Below, in pieces: positions 1-7,600 of a stretch of DNA of 8,715 nucleotides (position 1 is its first letter; each line of letters starts with the position of its first letter). Below the pieces are notes generated by a model that did no database searches, was not told where the DNA came from, and was given only the letters and a program-made list of their open reading frames with translations. The stretch spans positions 1-8,715 of the forward strand of contig JABHDC010000112.1 in NCBI GenBank assembly GCA_018673255.1. Direction: 5' to 3'. Position numbers and translations under genes: made by a program. The stretch is from Gemmatimonadota bacterium (lineage in GTDB: Bacteria > Latescibacterota > UBA2968 > UBA8231).

Positions 1-65
1 CGTGTGTGGGGTATGGGAGACCCGAAAGCCCTCACTCCTCCCACCGCCGACACGAGGCAGGCACG
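1..65 (+). repeat. Structured intergenic repeat, copy D (3' half only, cut by window edge)
   Basis: This is the right-hand part of the element seen complete at copies A, B and C. It keeps the GAGAC strand of the inner stem at 17-21, the CCTCACTCCTC segment at 30-40 shared with copies A and B, and the arm segment CTCCCACC at 38-45, matching CTCTCACC in copy C. The left half, including the central hairpin, would lie before the window. The right boundary is uncertain because the partner arm cannot be seen. The assignment rests on ordered motif matches to copy B, mainly GGGGTATG followed by GAGAC and CCTCACTCCTC. Confidence 0.6.
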
Positions 66-326: not shown

Positions 327-2153
327 TCACGTTTTGGCGCCGCGGCGGATGCCTTCGGTTTCCATCCAGCGGCGCACGACACCACGGGAGGCGCGCAGGT
401 CGAGTCGGTAGTCGGCGGAAAGTGAACGGCGGCGGGGGCCGCCGGCTTCGACTTTGCCCGTGGGAAGGGCATTGAAGCGGCCGCGCATCTGGCTGATGAC
501 GCGTGTCTTGGGGTTTACGGCGATGGTCATGAGGCGGTCGGGGCGATCGTCGTCGACCTGCAGTTGCACGGAGAAGACGGCGTGTCGACCTGAACGGCAG
601 CCGGTGGCGTAGCTGCGCACGCAGTGACTCAAGGCTCGTCCTTCGGCGACCAGTTCGGCCGTGGTGGTCAGCTCCTGCACCGTCCAGGTGAGCTGGTAGC
701 CCTTCTTGTCTTGCTCGGTCTCTTCGAATTCACCGATGTCACTGCGATTCCACCGGCTGGCTGGGATTCTGTTCTCACGCGCAAGTCGGGTGTGCCATGT
801 CTCTACCAGATCCAGCAGCTTGTTCACGGACCGGCTCTTCATGGAGAAGTTCGGTTCGGGTGGTCCTTCGGTGAGGATGTCACCACTGGGCTGAGGGATC
901 TGCTGGTCTGGGAACTTCCGCTCCTGGATGTAGTCGACGATGAGGCCGATGAGATCCAGGTCGATCATGGGATGTTTGGTGAACCAGTGGATGGCTGTGG
1001 CCCAGAAGTCTTCATGCTCGAAGCTGCGACCCAGTCGTGTGGTGAGTAGCGCTTCGACGAGTCCGATGTCGCCACCCTGGCCGATGATCTGTCCGTAGCG
1101 AATGGCTTCCAGCATGGTGTAGTGTCCGGGAGCTTGCAGCGTCTCATGGGCCATGCGTTTGGTCAACTCGGCAGGCAGTTCGGGCGCCGAGCGGATGTGC
1201 CCGCCTGTGGCAATATGGAGGAACCAACCCGTTGCAGCAGGCAAGGTTTCGTCAGGGGGTTGTAGAAACAGGGTGTCGACGAGGTCGGGCACGTCGTAGC
1301 ATGTCAGCAGGTGTCGCAGCAGGGCACCGAAATGCCGCCGCGCATTGTGACCCTGAGGACGCCAGTCTTCGAGCGGTCGCTGCCAGTGATCGTGGAGCTG
1401 AGCGATCCGCAGCAGGCCGTCGATCCAGCAATTGCCGGGTGCATCCCCGAAACGGCCCAGTGCGGGATCGAGGCTGAAGAGGTCTGCCTTCATGCGCTCG
1501 GTGTGCAAGAGGAGACGACGGAAGGCGTCCCGCGTCGACGTGGGGTGAATGGCTTCCTGTGTGTCGACACGGTGCGAGTCGGCGCGCCGAGAGGTGTACC
1601 CCTCTGAATCAGCTGTCTCCGGGTCCGGGGCTGCATCGATCCCGTCCAGGATGGCGCCCACGTGACCGAGCCAGGCGGGTTTGAGATCGGTCGTGTCGGT
1701 CTGGCCGGTGAAGAGGGCGTCGATGGTCTCATGGGGTCGACGGGTGAGGCGGCGCACGCGGCGCAGGGCCTGACGGCTGGCCGCCTCCCGCGCTATCTCG
1801 ACTTCCTTGTGACGCTGCCGATCGCCCTTGTGCAGGGCGTCACTCAGGCCTTGATCTCGACACCATTGCTGGTACGCGCTGACGTCGGTCAGGTTCAGGG
1901 CCTTGATGTGTTCCTGCACGGTCGCGTCCGCGTCGCTGGCTGCTGTGTCACGCCGGGCGGCCTCACGTTCCTGGCGACGTTCCTGCCAGCCTTTGGTCAG
2001 GGCGCCGGTGAAGCCGTGCTTCCGACACCAGCGCTGATACTCCCCAACCGTCTTGAGGCCGAGCGACGCGATGTGGGTATCGAGATCGGCGTTGGCGCGT
2101 GCCTGGGCACCCCGGTGACGGGGGCGTGATCTGCGTTTGCTCTGCTTACCCAT
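327..2153 (-). CDS. PcfJ-like domain protein with duplicated N-terminal module
   Basis: A 608-residue protein. The C-terminal part matches the PcfJ-like pattern: EGRALSHCVRSY with His510 and Cys511, then a basic Gly-rich turn, VFSVQL, a TIAV strand near 543-546, and SQMRGRFN (Gln555, Arg557-Gly558, Asn561). PcfJ was named from the enterococcal conjugative plasmid pCF10; its biochemical role is not established, and relatives occur on many chromosomes. The N-terminus is very basic (KRRSRPRHRG) and carries two copies of a roughly 45-residue module at about 24-68 and 79-123, each with hI.sLgL..v..Yq.WCr..G...aL.K followed by a charged helix. Residues about 140-480 are probably helical and not recognised. 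No signal peptide or membrane segment is visible. The partner gene pcfK is not present. No Shine-Dalgarno sequence precedes the ATG, whose leader begins inside repeat copy A. The domain call is fairly sure; the function is unknown. Confidence 0.85.
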   Translation of the reverse strand: MGKQSKRRSRPRHRGAQARANADLDTHIASLGLKTVGEYQRWCRKHGFTGALTKGWQERRQEREAARRDTAASDADATVQEHIKALNLTDVSAYQQWCRDQGLSDALHKGDRQRHKEVEIAREAASRQALRRVRRLTRRPHETIDALFTGQTDTTDLKPAWLGHVGAILDGIDAAPDPETADSEGYTSRRADSHRVDTQEAIHPTSTRDAFRRLLLHTERMKADLFSLDPALGRFGDAPGNCWIDGLLRIAQLHDHWQRPLEDWRPQGHNARRHFGALLRHLLTCYDVPDLVDTLFLQPPDETLPAATGWFLHIATGGHIRSAPELPAELTKRMAHETLQAPGHYTMLEAIRYGQIIGQGGDIGLVEALLTTRLGRSFEHEDFWATAIHWFTKHPMIDLDLIGLIVDYIQERKFPDQQIPQPSGDILTEGPPEPNFSMKSRSVNKLLDLVETWHTRLARENRIPASRWNRSDIGEFEETEQDKKGYQLTWTVQELTTTAELVAEGRALSHCVRSYATGCRSGRHAVFSVQLQVDDDRPDRLMTIAVNPKTRVISQMRGRFNALPTGKVEAGGPRRRSLSADYRLDLRASRGVVRRWMETEGIRRGAKT

Positions 2154-2167
2154 GGTTTGCGAGGTTG

Positions 2168-2398
2168 GGGGCCTGTGGAGGGGGTGTCAAGCGGCGTGCC
2201 CTCGTGGTGAGACGTTCGGGCGCCGTCGCCTGGATCTAGCTGGGCACAGCCTAATGGTGATTCCTGAAGGCTGGCGTGTCTCGACGAACTGCTGTCGAGT
2301 CACTGGGTCCTCTGCTTGCCGGGCGCGTGCGATGAGCGACGACATGCCCTCACTCCTCTCACCACGAGGGCACGCGGCGTGTGTCCCCTACAGGCCCC
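2168..2398 (+). repeat. Structured intergenic repeat, copy A (complete)
   Basis: The element is bounded by long complementary arms. GCGTGCCCTCGTGGTGAGA at 2194-2212 is the exact reverse complement of 2357-2375 (19 of 19). An outer block GGGGCCTGT at 2168-2176 pairs perfectly with 2390-2398, and a G-run at 2180-2184 pairs with C-rich 2385-2389. An inner stem CGTCGC (2224-2229) pairs with GCGACG (2336-2341). The central hairpin is GTG-t-CTCGAC, an 8-nt loop at 2286-2293, and GTCGAG-t-CAC (2276-2303). It lies 14 nt upstream of the PcfJ-like ATG, in the gap between that gene and the sulfatase gene. A local alternative hairpin (TGCCCTC 2345-2351 with GAGGGCA 2366-2372) competes with the long arm. 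Confidence 0.85.
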
Positions 2399-2693
2399 AT
2401 AGTGAGGGGGTAGCCATCTGCGTGATGATCTACAAAGTTGGTAAGATGCGGGTCGTGGTGCATCTGGTTGCGAAAGACGTCGAAGTTCAGGAGACGGCAG
2501 AAACAGACTCGGTTCACGCGTGGTGTGGGTTGTCATGGGTAAGACCCCTGATCTGACGGTGAGTTACATGGCTCGCCATCGTACCGTGGTTGCGGATGCA
2601 CCGGGCTGGCCTCCGGCGGTGCTATTCGCACGTCAGGGTGAGTTCCCGGCCTCTCGTGGTCCACGGGCGCAGTCGCCGGGTGTGCCCATCAGG
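2399..2693. other. Gap between repeat copy A and the small frame before the sulfatase
   Basis: About 295 nt with no coding region I can support. An open frame runs through 2520-2693 in phase with the small downstream frame, but it has no recognisable protein pattern. No convincing -35/-10 pair was found. The promoter for the sulfatase is expected somewhere here, or within copy A, on position alone. Confidence 0.3.
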
Positions 2694-2951
2694 ATGTCCC
2701 CGCTGATCGATATGCGCGACGACGAGGAATTGCTGGAGACGGGTGAGCAATTGCACGAGCTTTGCGAGAAGCGCGGGATCCTGCACCTGATCATGCGGGC
2801 TCTGTCACAGATGGGTGTAGCCCGGGTCGCAACCAGGGATGCGAGTCATGACTTGCCCGTCCAATCGACGAGAGCGTCAGGCCAGCGTCGCAGGCTGGAA
2901 GAGAAGGTAAGAGAGACGACCCACCTGTTGTCCGCTAAGGAGTCAAGGTGA
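2694..2951 (+). CDS. Small hypothetical protein, possibly coupled to the sulfatase
   Basis: An 85-residue frame beginning with MSPLIDMRDDEELLETGEQL. The first 50 residues are acidic and look helical, with strongly GC-biased third positions (about three quarters of codons over the frame); the second half is basic, Arg-rich and less convincing. Its TGA stop overlaps the ATG of the sulfatase by one base (TGATG), an arrangement typical of translational coupling. No good ribosome binding site precedes 2694, and the open frame continues upstream to 2520, so the start is a guess. I recognise no family. It may be a real leader gene, a gene remnant, or chance. Confidence 0.35.
   Translation: MSPLIDMRDDEELLETGEQLHELCEKRGILHLIMRALSQMGVARVATRDASHDLPVQSTRASGQRRRLEEKVRETTHLLSAKESR
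2937..2942 (+). promoter_or_regulatory. Ribosome binding site of the sulfatase gene
   Basis: AAGGAG lies 8 nt before the ATG at 2951 and only 5 nt before an in-frame GTG at 2948. The spacing favours the ATG, giving 478 residues. The site sits inside the end of the preceding small frame. Confidence 0.75.
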
Positions 2952-4387
2952 TGGAACGCAAGAACCGCAGGCCGAATGTCATCGTCATCATGTCGGATGA
3001 TCAGGGGCCCTGGGCGATGGGATGTGCGGGCACGCCGGAGCTGGATACGCCGGCGCTGGATCGGATCGCCTCTGAGGGCATGCGATTCGAGAACTGTTTC
3101 TGTGCGTCACCTGTGTGCTCGCCGGCGCGGGCGAGTTTTCTCACTGGAAGGATTCCCTCTTCGCATGGAATCCATGACTGGATCAAGTCGGGGAATATCA
3201 ATGTCGATGAGGGGGTGACATGGTCCGGCAAGGATCGACCGATCGAATATCTAGCCGGACTGCCGGCCTTCACGGATGTGCTGGCGGACAATGGTTATCT
3301 GGTGGCGCTGTCGGGGAAGTGGCATCTGGGCGACAGTGGGCGGCCGCAGAAGAGTCACGACTACTGGTGTGCACACTCGCTGGGCGGTGACAACTACACG
3401 GACTATCACATCTTCGACAATGACGAAACGCTGGCGCATCAGTCGCAGTATGTGACGGACCTGTTCACGGACCGGGCCATCGATTTCATCGACGCACATG
3501 CAGCCGACGATCAGCCCTTCTGTTTGAGCATCCACTACACGGCGCCTCACGCGCCCTGGCGGGAACACGAACAGCCACCGGAGATCTGGCAACGATATGC
3601 GGGTCAGGAGTTCCCCTCATTGCCGGTGCTGCCGCCGCACCCGTGGGGTGGCTGGGATCCGACGCCTGCGCAGCGCAGTGAAACGATCGGTGGATATTTC
3701 ACGACGATCACCGCCATGGACACGGCGATCGGTCGCGTGCTCGACCAGCTGGATGCGCTGGGAATCGCCGACAATACACTTCTCGTCTTCACCAGTGACA
3801 ATGGCTACAGCGTTGGCCATCACGGCGTCCTCGGGAAGGGCAATGGCACCTATCCGATGAACATGTATGAGGAAGCGGTGAAGGTGCCGTTCCTGGCACG
3901 GTGTCCGGGGCGTGTGCCGGCTGGCATCGTCAACGACGCTCTCGTCAGTCACTATGACTTCCTGCCGACGTTGCTCGACTTCCTCGGCATTGCGAATCCG
4001 ATCAGAGGTCTGCCGGGTCGTAGCTTTGCCGGCTCGCTGGCGGGTGGCACCCACGAGGATGGTTCCATCGTGATCGAAGAACCGGCCAGCTGCGTCTACG
4101 AGGAGTATGGTCCGGTGCGCATGATTCGCGATCGCGAATGGAAATACGTGCACCGGTATCCGGACGGTCCGCACGAGTTGTATCACCTCGCCGAGGATCC
4201 GCTGGAAGAGGTGAATCTGATCAACAATGACTCAGCGTCAACGACACTGGAACGGTTGCGCACGGAGTTGGGCGAGTGGTTCTCTCGCTACGAGGATCCG
4301 GCGCGAGATGGATCGCGGTTGCCGGTCACGGGCCAGGGGCAGGTGCAGATGGTGGCACCAGATGAGAATTCAGAGGCGTTTGTCTAG
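2951..4387 (+). CDS. Sulfatase (formylglycine-dependent arylsulfatase family)
   Basis: A 478-residue alkaline-phosphatase-superfamily sulfatase that would hydrolyse a sulfate ester. PNVIVIMSDDQG supplies the metal-binding Asp16 and Asp17. The signature VCSPARASFLTGR is intact, with Cys56 as the residue converted to formylglycine and Arg60 beside it. GKWHLG is at 122-127, and FTSDNG gives Asp283 and Asn284, followed by Lys296. The C-terminal motif WKYVHRYPDGPHELYHLAEDP is typical of the small C-terminal subdomain. Length is normal for the family. No signal peptide is visible: the protein starts with a charged MERKNRRPN and enters the first strand directly, so it may be cytoplasmic. The maturing enzyme must be encoded elsewhere. 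The substrate cannot be read from sequence; the sialidase-like gene downstream suggests a glycan. Repeat copy B begins 17 nt after the stop. Confidence 0.95.
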   Translation: MERKNRRPNVIVIMSDDQGPWAMGCAGTPELDTPALDRIASEGMRFENCFCASPVCSPARASFLTGRIPSSHGIHDWIKSGNINVDEGVTWSGKDRPIEYLAGLPAFTDVLADNGYLVALSGKWHLGDSGRPQKSHDYWCAHSLGGDNYTDYHIFDNDETLAHQSQYVTDLFTDRAIDFIDAHAADDQPFCLSIHYTAPHAPWREHEQPPEIWQRYAGQEFPSLPVLPPHPWGGWDPTPAQRSETIGGYFTTITAMDTAIGRVLDQLDALGIADNTLLVFTSDNGYSVGHHGVLGKGNGTYPMNMYEEAVKVPFLARCPGRVPAGIVNDALVSHYDFLPTLLDFLGIANPIRGLPGRSFAGSLAGGTHEDGSIVIEEPASCVYEEYGPVRMIRDREWKYVHRYPDGPHELYHLAEDPLEEVNLINNDSASTTLERLRTELGEWFSRYEDPARDGSRLPVTGQGQVQMVAPDENSEAFV

Positions 4388-4403
4388 CGGATCAACTACA
4401 GAG

Positions 4404-4609
4404 CGGATCCGTCCTGCCCGGTCTGAGGTTGAGAGGGCTCGGGGCTGGCGTCTCTTTGGTTGGTAGTGGGGTTCTGCCTGGGGTGATCTGCTGGTTGGCG
4501 TGCCTCGACATACTGCGTCGAGTCACTGAGTCCGGTGCTTGTTGGATACGGGGTATGAGGAGACACAAGCCTCCTCACTCCTCTCAACCTCAGGCCGCGC
4601 AGGAATCCG
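4404..4609 (+). repeat. Structured intergenic repeat, copy B (complete)
   Basis: The left arm at 4412-4436 pairs with 4580-4604: 25 aligned positions, with one mismatch (4418/4598) and one G-T wobble (4422/4594). Beyond a 3-nt bulge (4409-4411), CGGAT at 4404-4408 pairs with 4605-4609. The inner stem GTCTC (4450-4454) pairs with GAGAC (4560-4564). The central hairpin is GTG-c-CTCGAC, loop ATACTGC (4510-4516), and GTCGAG-t-CAC (4500-4526). A local alternative hairpin, TGAGGAG (4556-4562) with CTCCTCA (4571-4577), would exclude the inner stem. The outer arm sequence is unrelated to those of copies A and C, although the inside is homologous. No T-run follows, so it is not a standard terminator. 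Confidence 0.85.
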
Positions 4610-4761
4610 GTATACCGTTGATAGAGGGAACTGTGCTGGTACCTGATAGCGGATCTCGAGGAGAGATTCGATCGGCCATATCGTGAAGATGTCCTGCGAC
4701 CGCACTGCGATGACCCCATCGGCGGCCAAGCGCCGTCACCGCATCATACGATGAGACTGAC
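4610..4761 (+). other. Leader region of the first VOC gene
   Basis: No gene is seen in these 152 nt. Two small back-to-back hairpins are possible near the end: CGATG-ACCC-CATCG at 4708-4721 and CGGCG-GCCAAG-CGCCG at 4720-4735, sharing two bases, so only one can form fully. No clear promoter boxes and no good Shine-Dalgarno sequence precede the ATG at 4762. Confidence 0.25.
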
Positions 4762-5103
4762 ATGAAAGAGATTGCCCCGACGACGCCGGTCACGGATGTG
4801 GACAAGGCGGTCGAGTTCTACACCGTGCAACTGGGCTTCGAGGTGGGCTTCAACAATGCGCCGGTCTTTGCCATGGTGCGACGCGGCAGTGTGCAGATCG
4901 GGTTGCAACGAGCAGGCGAGGAGCGGCCGCCGGGCACGGGGAATTGCTACATCTGGGTCGAAGACATTCGGGCGATCTACGAGGAGTTCTCGGCGAAGGG
5001 CGTCGTCTTCACGGACGACATTGCCCACAGAGGTGAATACGACCTGACGGACTTTGTCATCCATGATCCGGATGGCAACCACATCGGTATCGGCGGTCGC
5101 TGA
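4762..5103 (+). CDS. VOC (glyoxalase/bleomycin-resistance fold) protein 1
   Basis: A 113-residue single-module protein of the vicinal oxygen chelate superfamily. The family pattern is clear: TTPVTDVDKAVEFYTVQLGFEVG at about 7-29, YIWVEDIRAIYEEFSAKGV in the middle, and DFVIHDPDGNHIGIGG at the end. The usual first-strand His and the final Glu that bind metal in glyoxalase I and related dioxygenases are not seen (the end reads HIGIGG). That fits the metal-free, ligand-binding bleomycin-resistance type better than an enzyme, though VOC metal sites vary. The substrate is unknown. It sits 103 nt before the sialidase-like gene, same strand, and could share its transcript. The start lacks a good ribosome binding site, but the first strand begins directly after it, so the N-terminus is about right. 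Confidence 0.9.
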   Translation: MKEIAPTTPVTDVDKAVEFYTVQLGFEVGFNNAPVFAMVRRGSVQIGLQRAGEERPPGTGNCYIWVEDIRAIYEEFSAKGVVFTDDIAHRGEYDLTDFVIHDPDGNHIGIGGR

Positions 5104-5159
5104 GAGACTGGTGACTGGACTGCAATTCTGAGTTCGGCCAACGTGTTCGGCTGCCGTCT

Positions 5160-5179
5160 GGCTGGCTCATCTGCCAGCT
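5160..5179 (+). other. Small hairpin before the sialidase-like gene
   Basis: GCTGGC at 5161-5166 pairs with GCCAGC at 5173-5178 around a TCATCT loop, with a wobble pair outside. No T-run follows. It lies 28 nt before the start codon and could be a processing or regulatory hairpin, or chance. Confidence 0.25.
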
Positions 5180-5194
5180 GTAATCGTCACCTCT

Positions 5195-5200
5195 GAGGGT
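5195..5200 (+). promoter_or_regulatory. Ribosome binding site of the sialidase-like gene
   Basis: GAGGGT lies 6 nt before the ATG at 5207 and supports that start; no other start nearby is better placed. Confidence 0.65.
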
Positions 5201-5206
5201 GCTGCC

Positions 5207-6625
5207 ATGGAACCATCACTCGACGGGATGCGCCAGCGTCCCTACGCCTATTCCGATGTCTTCCGTCACCCGCCTCTGGGCGGCTCTGCCTGGGGTTCGT
5301 CGGGTGGGCACATCCGCGAGGATATCGATCCTGCCGTCGCGCGGGTCTGTAAGAACGAATCCAACTGTACCGTCTTCTTACGTGATGGGACGTGGCTGAC
5401 CACATGGGGGCAGGGCTCGCACGAGGGGCATCCCGATCAGCGGATTGTCTGTGCCACCAGCTGTGACACGGGACGCACGTGGTCGCAGCCGATCACGGTG
5501 CAGGAATCCAACCCGGCCCGAAGTGAGAACGTGGCCTACGGTGTGCCTTTCGTGGTACCGGAGACGGGACGCGTCTATGTCTTCTACTTCCTCACGGTCA
5601 ACACGGAGGGTCCGCACTACGCCGCCACGGGAAGTCTGAAGGGTGCCAAGCGTGCGCATCCACTGCATCAATCGGGGACGCTGCACTTCGTCTATTCAGA
5701 TGATGGGGCGCAGACCTGGTCGAGGCGATATCCGATCAATCTGCCACCCCGCGCTGTGAATGTGCAGCCGGGGGCGTGGCATGCCTGGGTGAATCATCCC
5801 CCTGTACAGATGCCAACGGGCGAGGTCTTACTCACTTTCTCGGCGACCCGTTCCACTGGAATCGGGGCGACGCCGTGGCAGCTGGGCGCAGCGGAGGCCA
5901 ACGTGCTGCGCTGCGACAATCTGTGCACGGAAGATGATCCGGCGGCGTTGCAGTTCACGCTGCTACCCGAAGGGGCACACGGCATCCGCACGAATCTGCG
6001 CGATCACTGGGACAATCCGGCACTGCAGCGGCATGTGGAATTCTGGAAGGGCGAGCCGGATGACACGGGATGGAGTCTGCAGGAGCTGACGTTGGTGGCC
6101 CTGGCCGATGGGCGCTGGCTTGGTGTGGGGCGCACGTATCTGGGATCCCCCGGCTACACGATCAGTGAGGATCGTGGCACGTCGTGGTCACGAGCCGAAC
6201 CACTGTGCTGGCGACCGGGTGGCGAGCCGATTCCGCATCCGATGACGATGTGCCCCATCGCCCCCACTTCGGACGGGCGTATCGTGCTACTCTTCACGAA
6301 CAACGATGGATCGGCCCGCGGGGCACAGCACGTATGGGACGGAGATGGGCGGACCCGGAATCCGCAGTGGATGGCCGTGGCTCGTCAGGTAGAAGACCCC
6401 TCGGGGAAGGTGGCGAATGCGGGGTTGGTCTTTGATGCGCCCGTCCTGCTGGCCGAGGTCGATGATTCGGGTGAGACGAATCTGAAGACGGGGATCAGTA
6501 TGCCGCAGTTCTTTGAGCGGGAGAATCGGTGGTTTGTCTGTTACAACATCGACAAGGAGCATCTGCTGCTGGATGAAGTGAGTGGGGTCGCGGGGTCGCC
6601 GGGCAGCTGCGTCCCATCGGTGTGA
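5207..6625 (+). CDS. Sialidase-like protein with Asp-box (BNR) repeats
   Basis: A 472-residue protein with the six-bladed propeller signature of exo-alpha-sialidase/BNR proteins. Three Asp boxes are visible: SCDTGRTW (85-92, canonical), SDDGAQTW (164-171, Ala in place of the Gly) and SEDRGTSW (320-327). Between them are typical blade strands such as GRVYVFYFLTVN, GEVLLTFSATR, GRWLGVGRTYLG and GRIVLLFTNNDGS. The catalytic Arg triad and the FRIP motif of true neuraminidases could not be assigned, so the substrate is open: sialic acid, another sugar, or no catalysis at all. No signal peptide is present. The last codons, CVPSV and the stop, lie inside the left arm of repeat copy C (6608-6622), so the C-terminus may have been changed by that element. 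The sulfatase and VOC1 genes upstream suggest a shared glycan-related task. Confidence 0.88.
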   Translation: MEPSLDGMRQRPYAYSDVFRHPPLGGSAWGSSGGHIREDIDPAVARVCKNESNCTVFLRDGTWLTTWGQGSHEGHPDQRIVCATSCDTGRTWSQPITVQESNPARSENVAYGVPFVVPETGRVYVFYFLTVNTEGPHYAATGSLKGAKRAHPLHQSGTLHFVYSDDGAQTWSRRYPINLPPRAVNVQPGAWHAWVNHPPVQMPTGEVLLTFSATRSTGIGATPWQLGAAEANVLRCDNLCTEDDPAALQFTLLPEGAHGIRTNLRDHWDNPALQRHVEFWKGEPDDTGWSLQELTLVALADGRWLGVGRTYLGSPGYTISEDRGTSWSRAEPLCWRPGGEPIPHPMTMCPIAPTSDGRIVLLFTNNDGSARGAQHVWDGDGRTRNPQWMAVARQVEDPSGKVANAGLVFDAPVLLAEVDDSGETNLKTGISMPQFFERENRWFVCYNIDKEHLLLDEVSGVAGSPGSCVPSV

Positions 6626-6788
6626 GCTACTCGAGGCTACGTCTCTTGTGATTGAGTGATCTGAATCCTGTGGTTGAGCCTTCTGGCCTTCGTGCCTCGA
6701 CAGACTGCGTCGAGTCACTGGGCTCACCAATGCCTGCAGTGCTTCAGAGAGACGTGATGCCTCTCGCGGCTCTCACCGATGGGACGCA
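6608..6788 (+). repeat. Structured intergenic repeat, copy C (complete, overlaps two coding ends)
   Basis: TGCGTCCCATCGGTG at 6608-6622 is the exact reverse complement of 6774-6788 (15 of 15). Pairing continues inward with small gaps: 6624-6627 with 6769-6772, GAGGC 6633-6637 with GCCTC 6759-6763, and ACGTCTCT 6639-6646 with AGAGACGT 6748-6755. TGAGCC 6675-6680 pairs with GGCTCA 6721-6726, and the central hairpin is GTG-c-CTCGAC, loop AGACTGC (6702-6708), and GTCGAG-t-CAC (6692-6718). Nearly the whole element can form one long hairpin. The left arm contains the last codons of the sialidase-like gene; the right arm contains the ATG at 6779 of the next gene. Confidence 0.87.
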
Positions 6789-7600
6789 CGTGGACCCGGC
6801 ACGACCCGCTTGCGGTGGATGAAGAACATGAGGAAAGACCACATTTTCAAGATAACCGGAAGACCTTGAGGGTCGTCACGTACAACATGCGGCAGGGTGG
6901 GTCTCAAGCGAACTGGTCTGAGTTGTTGGCGGCGACGACGCCGGATCTTCTGCTGATTCAGGAGACCAAGGATCCGGCCGCCCTGCTGGAGGATGTCGAC
7001 CACGGGCTGGATCTGGATCACCTGCTCTGGGTGCCTGTCGAGGCGCGTCGATGGGGATCGGCGATGTGGTGGCGTGGTCAGGCGATCCGGCCGATCTCCT
7101 TACCTAGCTTCGAGGGGTGGGTCGTCGGTGGAGAGACCCGGTTGGAGTCCGAATCGATCTTCGTCTTCAGTGTTCACATGCCGCCGGAGCGTGGTTCGTA
7201 TCTGCACTCTGCGAATCGGATGCTGGATGAGTTGAAGCCGATCGTGCAGGGCGGGCAGTTGCTGTTGGGTGGTGACTGGAATGTGGCGACGGCGCGGCGT
7301 GATCCTGATGAGGAGCGGAGGAATCGTCCAGGTGAGCTGGCGCTCTTTGATCGACTGGAATCGGAGTTCGGACTGGTCTCGGCCTGGCGAGTGGCGCACC
7401 CGACAGGACCGCTGCCGCAGACGTTGCGATGGATGAAGGAGCCGACGACACCCTATCACTGCGATGGGCTTTTCATGCCCAGTGGATGGGCGACTTCGAA
7501 TGTGTCAGCCCATGTGCTGGAGGGCCTACCCTGGACGGGACTCAGCGATCATAACCCGGTTGTTGTGGGATTCGACAATCCTCATCGGTCGTCGCCCTGA
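6779..7600 (+). CDS. Endonuclease/exonuclease/phosphatase family protein
   Basis: A 273-residue protein with the full EEP (DNase I/APE1/inositol phosphatase-like) motif set: LRVVTYNMRQG with Asn36, LLLIQETK with Glu62, FSVHMPP with His133, LLGGDWNV with Asp166 and Asn168, HCDGLF with Asp229, and the terminal LSDHNPVV with Asp257 and His258. It should be a metal-dependent phosphodiesterase or phosphomonoesterase acting on nucleic acid, lipid or sugar phosphates; the substrate is not readable. No signal peptide is visible. The first 29 residues precede the fold and carry no motif. The ATG at 6779 lies inside the right arm of repeat copy C and has no ribosome binding site, so the true start may be downstream, for example an in-frame GTG at 6815 or TTG at 6866 with GGA a few bases before it. 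The 3' end overlaps the convergent lipoprotein gene by 59 nt. Confidence 0.92.
   Translation: MGRTWTRHDPLAVDEEHEERPHFQDNRKTLRVVTYNMRQGGSQANWSELLAATTPDLLLIQETKDPAALLEDVDHGLDLDHLLWVPVEARRWGSAMWWRGQAIRPISLPSFEGWVVGGETRLESESIFVFSVHMPPERGSYLHSANRMLDELKPIVQGGQLLLGGDWNVATARRDPDEERRNRPGELALFDRLESEFGLVSAWRVAHPTGPLPQTLRWMKEPTTPYHCDGLFMPSGWATSNVSAHVLEGLPWTGLSDHNPVVVGFDNPHRSSP

Follow-up and report, generated by a model that had tools for sequence, protein, structure and literature searches.

The 8,715-nucleotide stretch of DNA analysed here (contig JABHDC010000112.1, deposited as Gemmatimonadota bacterium; hereafter the window) carries a palindromic element in three full copies (c1, c2 and c3) and a fourth of which the right part is present. 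These copies belong to a genuine family of intergenic palindromes, for which no existing name was found. We consider it most probable (about 0.6) that the family consists of non-autonomous mobile DNA elements of the kind of miniature inverted-repeat transposable elements (MITEs) and REPINs, without being REPINs proper. This reading is drawn from the dispersal of the copies, their lack of orientation bias, a locus that is empty in three relatives and a solo-arm remnant, and also from an orthologous copy that drifts mostly uncompensated and from arms whose mismatches show no surplus of G-T over A-C.

Element architecture and distribution

The outermost parts of the element are long arms that pair with each other (P1); inside these come an inner stem (P2) with CGTCKC on its left and GMGAC on its right side, single strands rich in G and T, and, at the centre, a hairpin (P3). 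In the window copies this hairpin reads GTG, a mismatch (C.T or T.T), CTCGAC, a loop of 7-8 nt containing ACTGC, GTCGAG, CAC and then TG (coordinates in Table 1). An initial annotation of the window had listed the ordered motifs GTG-Y-CTCGAC, ACTGC (loop), GTCGAG-T-CAC-TG, CGTCKC (left), GMGAC and CTCTCA (both right), together with three full copies and a partial one; all of these were recovered, the partial copy (1-65) being recognised by its right-part motifs only and not listed by the covariance model. The long arms, which it had described as pairing with each other, are indeed inverted repeats (84% complementary in c1, 92% in c2 and 83% in c3), and none of 200 dinucleotide-preserving shuffles of each copy folded as well as the copy itself (z-scores of −7.3, −4.5 and −5.1, respectively). 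The arm sequences of c1, c2 and c3 differ from one another: beyond GGTGAGAG, no two copies of the window's sub-family have the same arms, although the two arms of a copy complement each other. Family-wide, complete copies are long, imperfect palindromes of approximately 180-230 bp, with a P1 of 20-48 nt where it is kept; the P3 mismatch is C.T in 27/37 copies, TGRG follows P3 in 32/37, and in the single-stranded parts joining the stems G and T make up 67-69% of one strand.

The copies outside the window all come from the genomes of relatives, 64 genomes of the phylum having been searched. A covariance model (R1) trained on five copies (the three of the window and two from genome G001) gave two strong scores in G001 (E values of 6.8e-25 and 2.8e-22), both belonging to training sequences; the divergent relatives found later with R1 were outside its training set, and its matches were distributed over 4/64 genomes. 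The second model (R2), built from 18 R1 matches, yielded 42 matches (15 of them in its training set) in 6/64 genomes (G001, 14; G021, 8; G022, 5; G023, 10; G024, 1; G025, 4). The initial annotation had suggested a search with a covariance model and had named a lack of further copies as refuting its proposal; copies do exist in relatives, the source genome itself lying outside this search. All six element-bearing genomes are among the 25 genomes of the family of G001. The other 58 genomes (39 of them outside that family) gave no match at E ≤ 0.01 in a scan with at most 56 first-look candidates per genome and tighter filtering, which may have passed over weak copies.

Scanning one genome per species (84,980 species) with the core pattern returned four stretches, one of which (L004) was a true relative. 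The other three (L001, L002 and L003; R1 scores of 17.8, 11.8 and 15.7 bits) were rejected as copies, the other motifs being absent by eye. The L004 record, named Gemmatimonadetes bacterium SI074_bin69, has gene order and element in common with the window, and its title may be a misassignment. Two of the 29 listed homologues of the PcfJ-domain protein of the window are named Candidatus Latescibacteria, and from these names the element-bearing group is probably related to the Latescibacteria. The strict-core pattern retrieved no stretch from viral contigs, and c2 had no match in a plasmid collection. An ungapped palindrome finder applied to 1.0 Mb found six palindromes, five of which were copies in L040 and L042; it was too strict to find the window copies. 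Copies are clustered in G001, where four pairs within 15 kb occur among the 14 copies (P 0.00175, simulated on one linear 7.1-Mb piece), and contig G001:C29 has three copies in its first 21 kb, the following 339 kb having no match better than E = 1.

Covariation, dispersal and decay of the copies

Covariation was assessed on 37 copies fitted to R2 (the three of the window and 34 of the 42 matches, eight being left out) by shuffle and slide controls, instead of the R-scape test suggested by the initial annotation. Fourteen of the 19 modelled pairs changed on both sides; 93.4% of the cells paired, versus 77.9% in shuffled alignments and 40.4-49.4% with slid structures, and the covariation score (0.349, versus 0.125 shuffled) was not reached by any of 500 shuffles. 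The clearest single case of compensation is the middle base pair of the outer P3 triplet, which within a conserved frame is A-T in 29 copies, T-A in six, C-G in one and G-C in one, and is never unpaired. The arms were compared without any model in 36 copies (L056:7584 was left out): the mean score of an arm with its own partner was 16.5, versus 7.95 across copies, and the own right arm ranked first in 17/36 copies and second to sixth in 14/36, the arms being lost in the remaining 5/36. The orthologous copy of G001 and G021 has drifted largely uncompensated: among 41 long-range pairs there were ten one-side changes (five of them breaking the pair) and one both-side change; taking the G021 fold as reference (31 pairs), there were nine one-side changes (five broken) and no both-side change.

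The window is collinear with contig G001:C70 over positions 327-4387 (genes encoding the PcfJ-domain protein, an isochorismatase-like protein and a sulfatase, the last with 75% DNA identity), and between the two genes that enclose c1 no element is present in G001, G021 or G022, as judged by alignment or reading plus the model scan. In the window, c1 starts 15 bases from the start of the PcfJ gene, and the isochorismatase-like gene on its other side has no N-terminal part. After the sulfatase gene, the G001 sequence continues differently and without an element; c3 abuts a changed C-terminus of the BNR-domain gene. Two element loci are common to G001 and G021, in a collinear stretch, with one copy whole in both and the right arm of the other missing in G021. 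At G021:C8:888 the core is kept and the right arm is gone, and a solo left arm is present at G001:C50:245118. This solo arm was considered as the end of an autonomous element and rejected, since it proved to be a truncated copy that follows a flank of which a duplicate lies at G001:C50:252657.

Similar copies are found at different loci. The sub-family shared by G023 and G025 comprises nine of them, alike in arms and core and with ends that are mostly GGGC...GCCC, and G001 has copies similar over 212 nt at 90%; copy ends are alike within the G023/G025 sub-family and unlike between sub-families. In 20 loci (261 kb) with matching gene neighbourhoods, taken from six genomes, the best match had E 6.2; true empty sites among them were not resolved flank by flank, so that only the c1 locus is counted as an empty site.

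Several copies show additional features. Seven of the nine G023/G025 copies have a second conserved module (GTGGCGCC...GGCGCCACTCG...GGTGGGGCGCC) downstream of the right arm at a similar distance (L040, L042, L044, L045 and L057), partly repeated in L042:8072, suggesting a composite repeat. Two tandem copies at L056:7433-7692 (G022:C332) adjoin a stretch of Ns and the end of the contig; in the first of them, the central hairpin is followed by another (GATCCAGCTTGCTGGATC). The near-identical copies L057:5275 and L057:5614 (G025:C442), 339 bp apart and with the same right arm, may represent a tandem duplication or an assembly effect.

Mobile DNA and the rival explanations

REPINs are described in PMC3116915 as short, non-autonomous, hairpin-forming extragenic elements with compensatory changes across the hairpin and with some clusters. 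The element resembles them in being small and intergenic, in folding into a hairpin along its full length, compensatory changes included, and in occurring in some clusters; it differs in being longer (the GI REPIN of the same paper has 71 bp between its two 16-mers), in having arms without common sequence between sub-families, and in its few copies per genome. The Y1 (RAYT) transposase family PF01797 was found in 0/6 genomes, whose completeness is not stated, with the control positive in 5/14; with no Y1 transposase found, the six genomes are taken to be without a RAYT, and the element consequently is not a REPIN proper. GTAG-/CGTC-tagged repetitive extragenic palindromes (REPs) are, in PMC3733652, palindromes of 20-40 bp whose sub-families have alternative complementary stem residues, the CGTC type being apparently without a dedicated transposase. 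In our element GTAG is present on the + strand 0, 1 and 0 times in c1, c2 and c3, and CGTC lies inside P2 and is replaced by CGCC in some sub-families, indicating that it is not a terminal tag.

With regard to generic MITEs, the element is likewise short, has terminal inverted repeats and several dispersed copies, and contains no internal transposase gene. ERIC/IRU, YPAL and Correia/NEMIS are intergenic imperfect palindromes of approximately 100-200 bp, MITE-like and thought to be non-autonomous mobile elements, whose copies share sequence; by this description the element differs from them, its shape being kept and much of its sequence not. Integron attC sites are single-strand hairpins between genes, variable in sequence and conserved in structure, as is the element. 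No RYYYAAC/GTTRRRY core-site pair was present on one strand of c1-c3, the integrase not being searched for. Nine element queries against the collected loci of at least 3 kb retrieved copies, whole or partial, together with the one solo arm, and no gene enclosed by a pair of ends. Rfam gave no match at or above threshold on the elements (window and 15 loci), the single sub-threshold match (E 0.41) being at 6913-7004, outside the copies. That the initial annotation did not recognise it as a named RNA class, REP, ERIC or attC is in line with these comparisons, ERIC having been compared via Rfam only. None of the open-licence PMC papers listed for Latescibacteria repeats or mobile elements, palindromic elements or template switching describes the element, and none was listed for Latescibacteria with PcfJ.

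The initial annotation had left the choice between a structured RNA and a non-autonomous mobile element; its second alternative is the one favoured here, and a structured RNA is unlikely. Such an RNA, trans-acting or in the leader or trailer of an mRNA, would be transcribed from the + strand, its mismatch hairpin binding a protein or ligand, which is consistent with the covariation of P2 and P3, with the conserved mismatch, TGRG and the G+T-rich single strands lying on one strand, and with the ratio of G-T to A-C mismatches in P3 (4:1) and in P2 and P3 together (25:5, on the model-fitted alignment, which favours G-U). RNA helices tolerate G-U more than A-C. This wobble bias is absent from the ungapped P2 (5:5) and from the arms, where 31 copies have 29 G-T and 26 A-C mismatches (6/37 omitted: L056:7433, L056:7584, L053:888, L012, L046:12887 and L034), so the arms give no indication of selection on an RNA strand; the P3 events are too few to separate DNA from RNA. 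Orientation, tallied by hand in 22 copies, is also inconsistent (5' neighbour, 9 same and 13 opposite; 3' neighbour, 10 and 9; genes called as longest reading frames, not from annotation), and the neighbours are mostly unlike. Sigma-70-like promoters were not found in the window (0 versus 2.0 expected; the host bacteria may use others), and to this are added the lack of Rfam matches and the drift of the orthologous copy.

That the copies are a chromosomal DNA site (for transcription end, a nucleoid protein or replication), multiplied by duplication and maintained because it forms a cruciform, is quite improbable. It would agree with the tight position of several copies between genes and with a terminator-like hairpin (by eye) after the G021 gene whose G001 orthologue has the element downstream; no TTTT run was present near the right ends of c1-c3, however, and the copies are clustered in G001 instead of spread and have no match in 58/64 genomes of the phylum. 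Least probable is that the copies are degenerate remains of an already known system (integron attC array, REPIN or insertion-sequence ends): the overall REPIN likeness (short, hairpin-forming, with compensatory changes, as in PMC3116915) and a gene-element-gene-element order that recalls cassettes point towards it, whereas the results for Y1, for the attC core-site pair and for a pair of ends enclosing a gene point away from it.

Under the preferred reading of mobile DNA, one strand of the palindrome would fold when single-stranded, the P2/P3 core with its mismatch would be recognised by a candidate trans-acting transposase or recombinase, and the element would be transferred or copied in its folded DNA form; in an active lineage the shape would be under selection, and individual copies would drift in place afterwards. 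Several observations weigh against it. No link between the element and a transposase or recombinase emerged (the dedicated search covered Y1 only), the copy number is low (1-14 per genome), and no target-site duplication was seen by eye at c1 or at the G023/G025 copies, the exact ends of some copies being uncertain. The absence of c1 in the relatives could be a loss, movement itself being only inferred, and the equal numbers of G-T and A-C mismatches fit neutral decay as well as selection at the DNA level. Some neighbours are repeated (IlvD-type twice, in G001 and G021; sulfatase twice, at c2 of the window and in G023; xylose-isomerase-like twice). Being fitted to the structure, the alignment of P2 and P3 favours pairing; folded alone, P3 reaches z < −1.5 in 11/37 copies only and its best fold is often another one (especially in the G023/G025 and G001:C29 sub-families), so the support for P3 comes from the alignment and not from energy. 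Finally, five G023 paralogues (ten comparisons, not independent) show 15 both-side pairing changes versus 34 one-side changes, 24 of them breaking.

Neighbouring genes and the origin of the outer arms

Among 20 flanking proteins scanned, 16 had a Pfam match, the families being mostly unlike (UxuA, GH32, SBP, SSF, GH4, ABC, SufBD, FapA, exonuclease and others), and several copies are separated from the adjoining genes by only a few bases, as judged from longest-frame calls. The PcfJ-domain protein (327-2153, − strand) has a C-terminal Pfam match and, by eye, two similar N-terminal stretches; its relatives are present in 30/64 genomes, with up to eight matches per genome (one gene may yield two), and it was rejected as partner of the element, which is present in 6/64. 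The frame to the right of c1, which we take from its translation to be isochorismatase-like (it has no Pfam match), shares outside its retained part only scattered 3-mers with the G001 protein in the three frames of 2400-2639. The alignment of the BNR protein with its homologues ends at residue 458 in 12 of the 14 inspected (120 were listed) and at 460 and 470 in the others; the protein occurs on six metagenome contigs with close relatives of the window (the longest of 44,680 bases) and had no match in viral contigs. In the endonuclease/exonuclease/phosphatase-family frame (6779-7600, + strand) the first ATG falls within the right arm of c3, so that the gene probably starts further in, or else the element provides its start.

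Table 1 Coordinates of the element copies, their parts and the adjoining frames in the window.
Feature	Position	Strand	Details
Full copy c1	2168..2398 (231 bp)	+	Arms 2181-2212/2357-2388 and 2168-2176/2390-2398 (read directly); R1/R2 match 2222-2343
Full copy c2	4404..4609	+	Arms 4412-4436/4580-4604; R2 match 4447-4567; fold pairs 4404 with 4609
Full copy c3	6608..6788	+	Arms 6608-6637/6759-6788; R2 match 6638-6756
Fourth copy, right part	1..65	+	Cut by the window end; 28 nt at 16-43, 75% identical to c2 right part (family D6); motifs read directly
Central hairpin of c1	2276..2303	+	GTG, T.T mismatch, CTCGAC, 8-nt loop, GTCGAG, CAC; read directly
Central hairpin of c2	4500..4526	+	Read directly
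Central hairpin of c3	6692..6718	+	Read directly
Inner stem P2 of c1, 5' side	2222..2231	+	Pairs with 2335-2343; gap in one c1 column; from alignment
c1 outer left arm	2169..2200	+	Fixed-register match to element-free G021 flank, 19/32; 7/77,989 null 32-mers reach 19
Isochorismatase-like frame (presumed), right of c1	2520..2951	+	Without approximately the first 100 residues present in G001 (alignment)
BNR-domain gene	5207..6625	+	Pfam BNR_2; last 14 residues off homologue consensus; stop inside c3 left arm

The alignment of the outer left arm of c1 with the G021 flank (Table 1) suggests that this arm may be host DNA and the right arm its inverted copy. We therefore put forward, as a tentative and rather unlikely proposal, that the P2+P3 core inserts at a new site, where fold-back synthesis on the adjacent host DNA then produces or lengthens the outer arms. 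The arms of inverted repeats are reported in PMC8604942 to be homogenised by template switching between the repeats. The right outer arm had no counterpart in the G021 flank by eye, the start of the neighbouring gene being lost on that side. Counting against the proposal, the G001 flank did not match (11/34 with the window and 12/34 with G021) and the basis is one locus; at a second locus, the comparison of the left flank of G001:C70:218523 with G021 gave no convincing arm homology. Alternatively, the G021 flank could be a solo-arm relic of an older insertion, like that at G001:C50:245118.

Y1/RAYT transposases, which are tied to comparable hairpin elements, were not found in these genomes, and the mover of the family is thus still to be sought. 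Arm copying, if true, would explain arms that in the window's sub-family are unique to each copy and nevertheless complementary, and copying from the target would be a simple route for the birth of long palindromes in bacterial genomes. If the family is indeed mobile DNA, it would add a case in which the shape of DNA is kept far better than its sequence.

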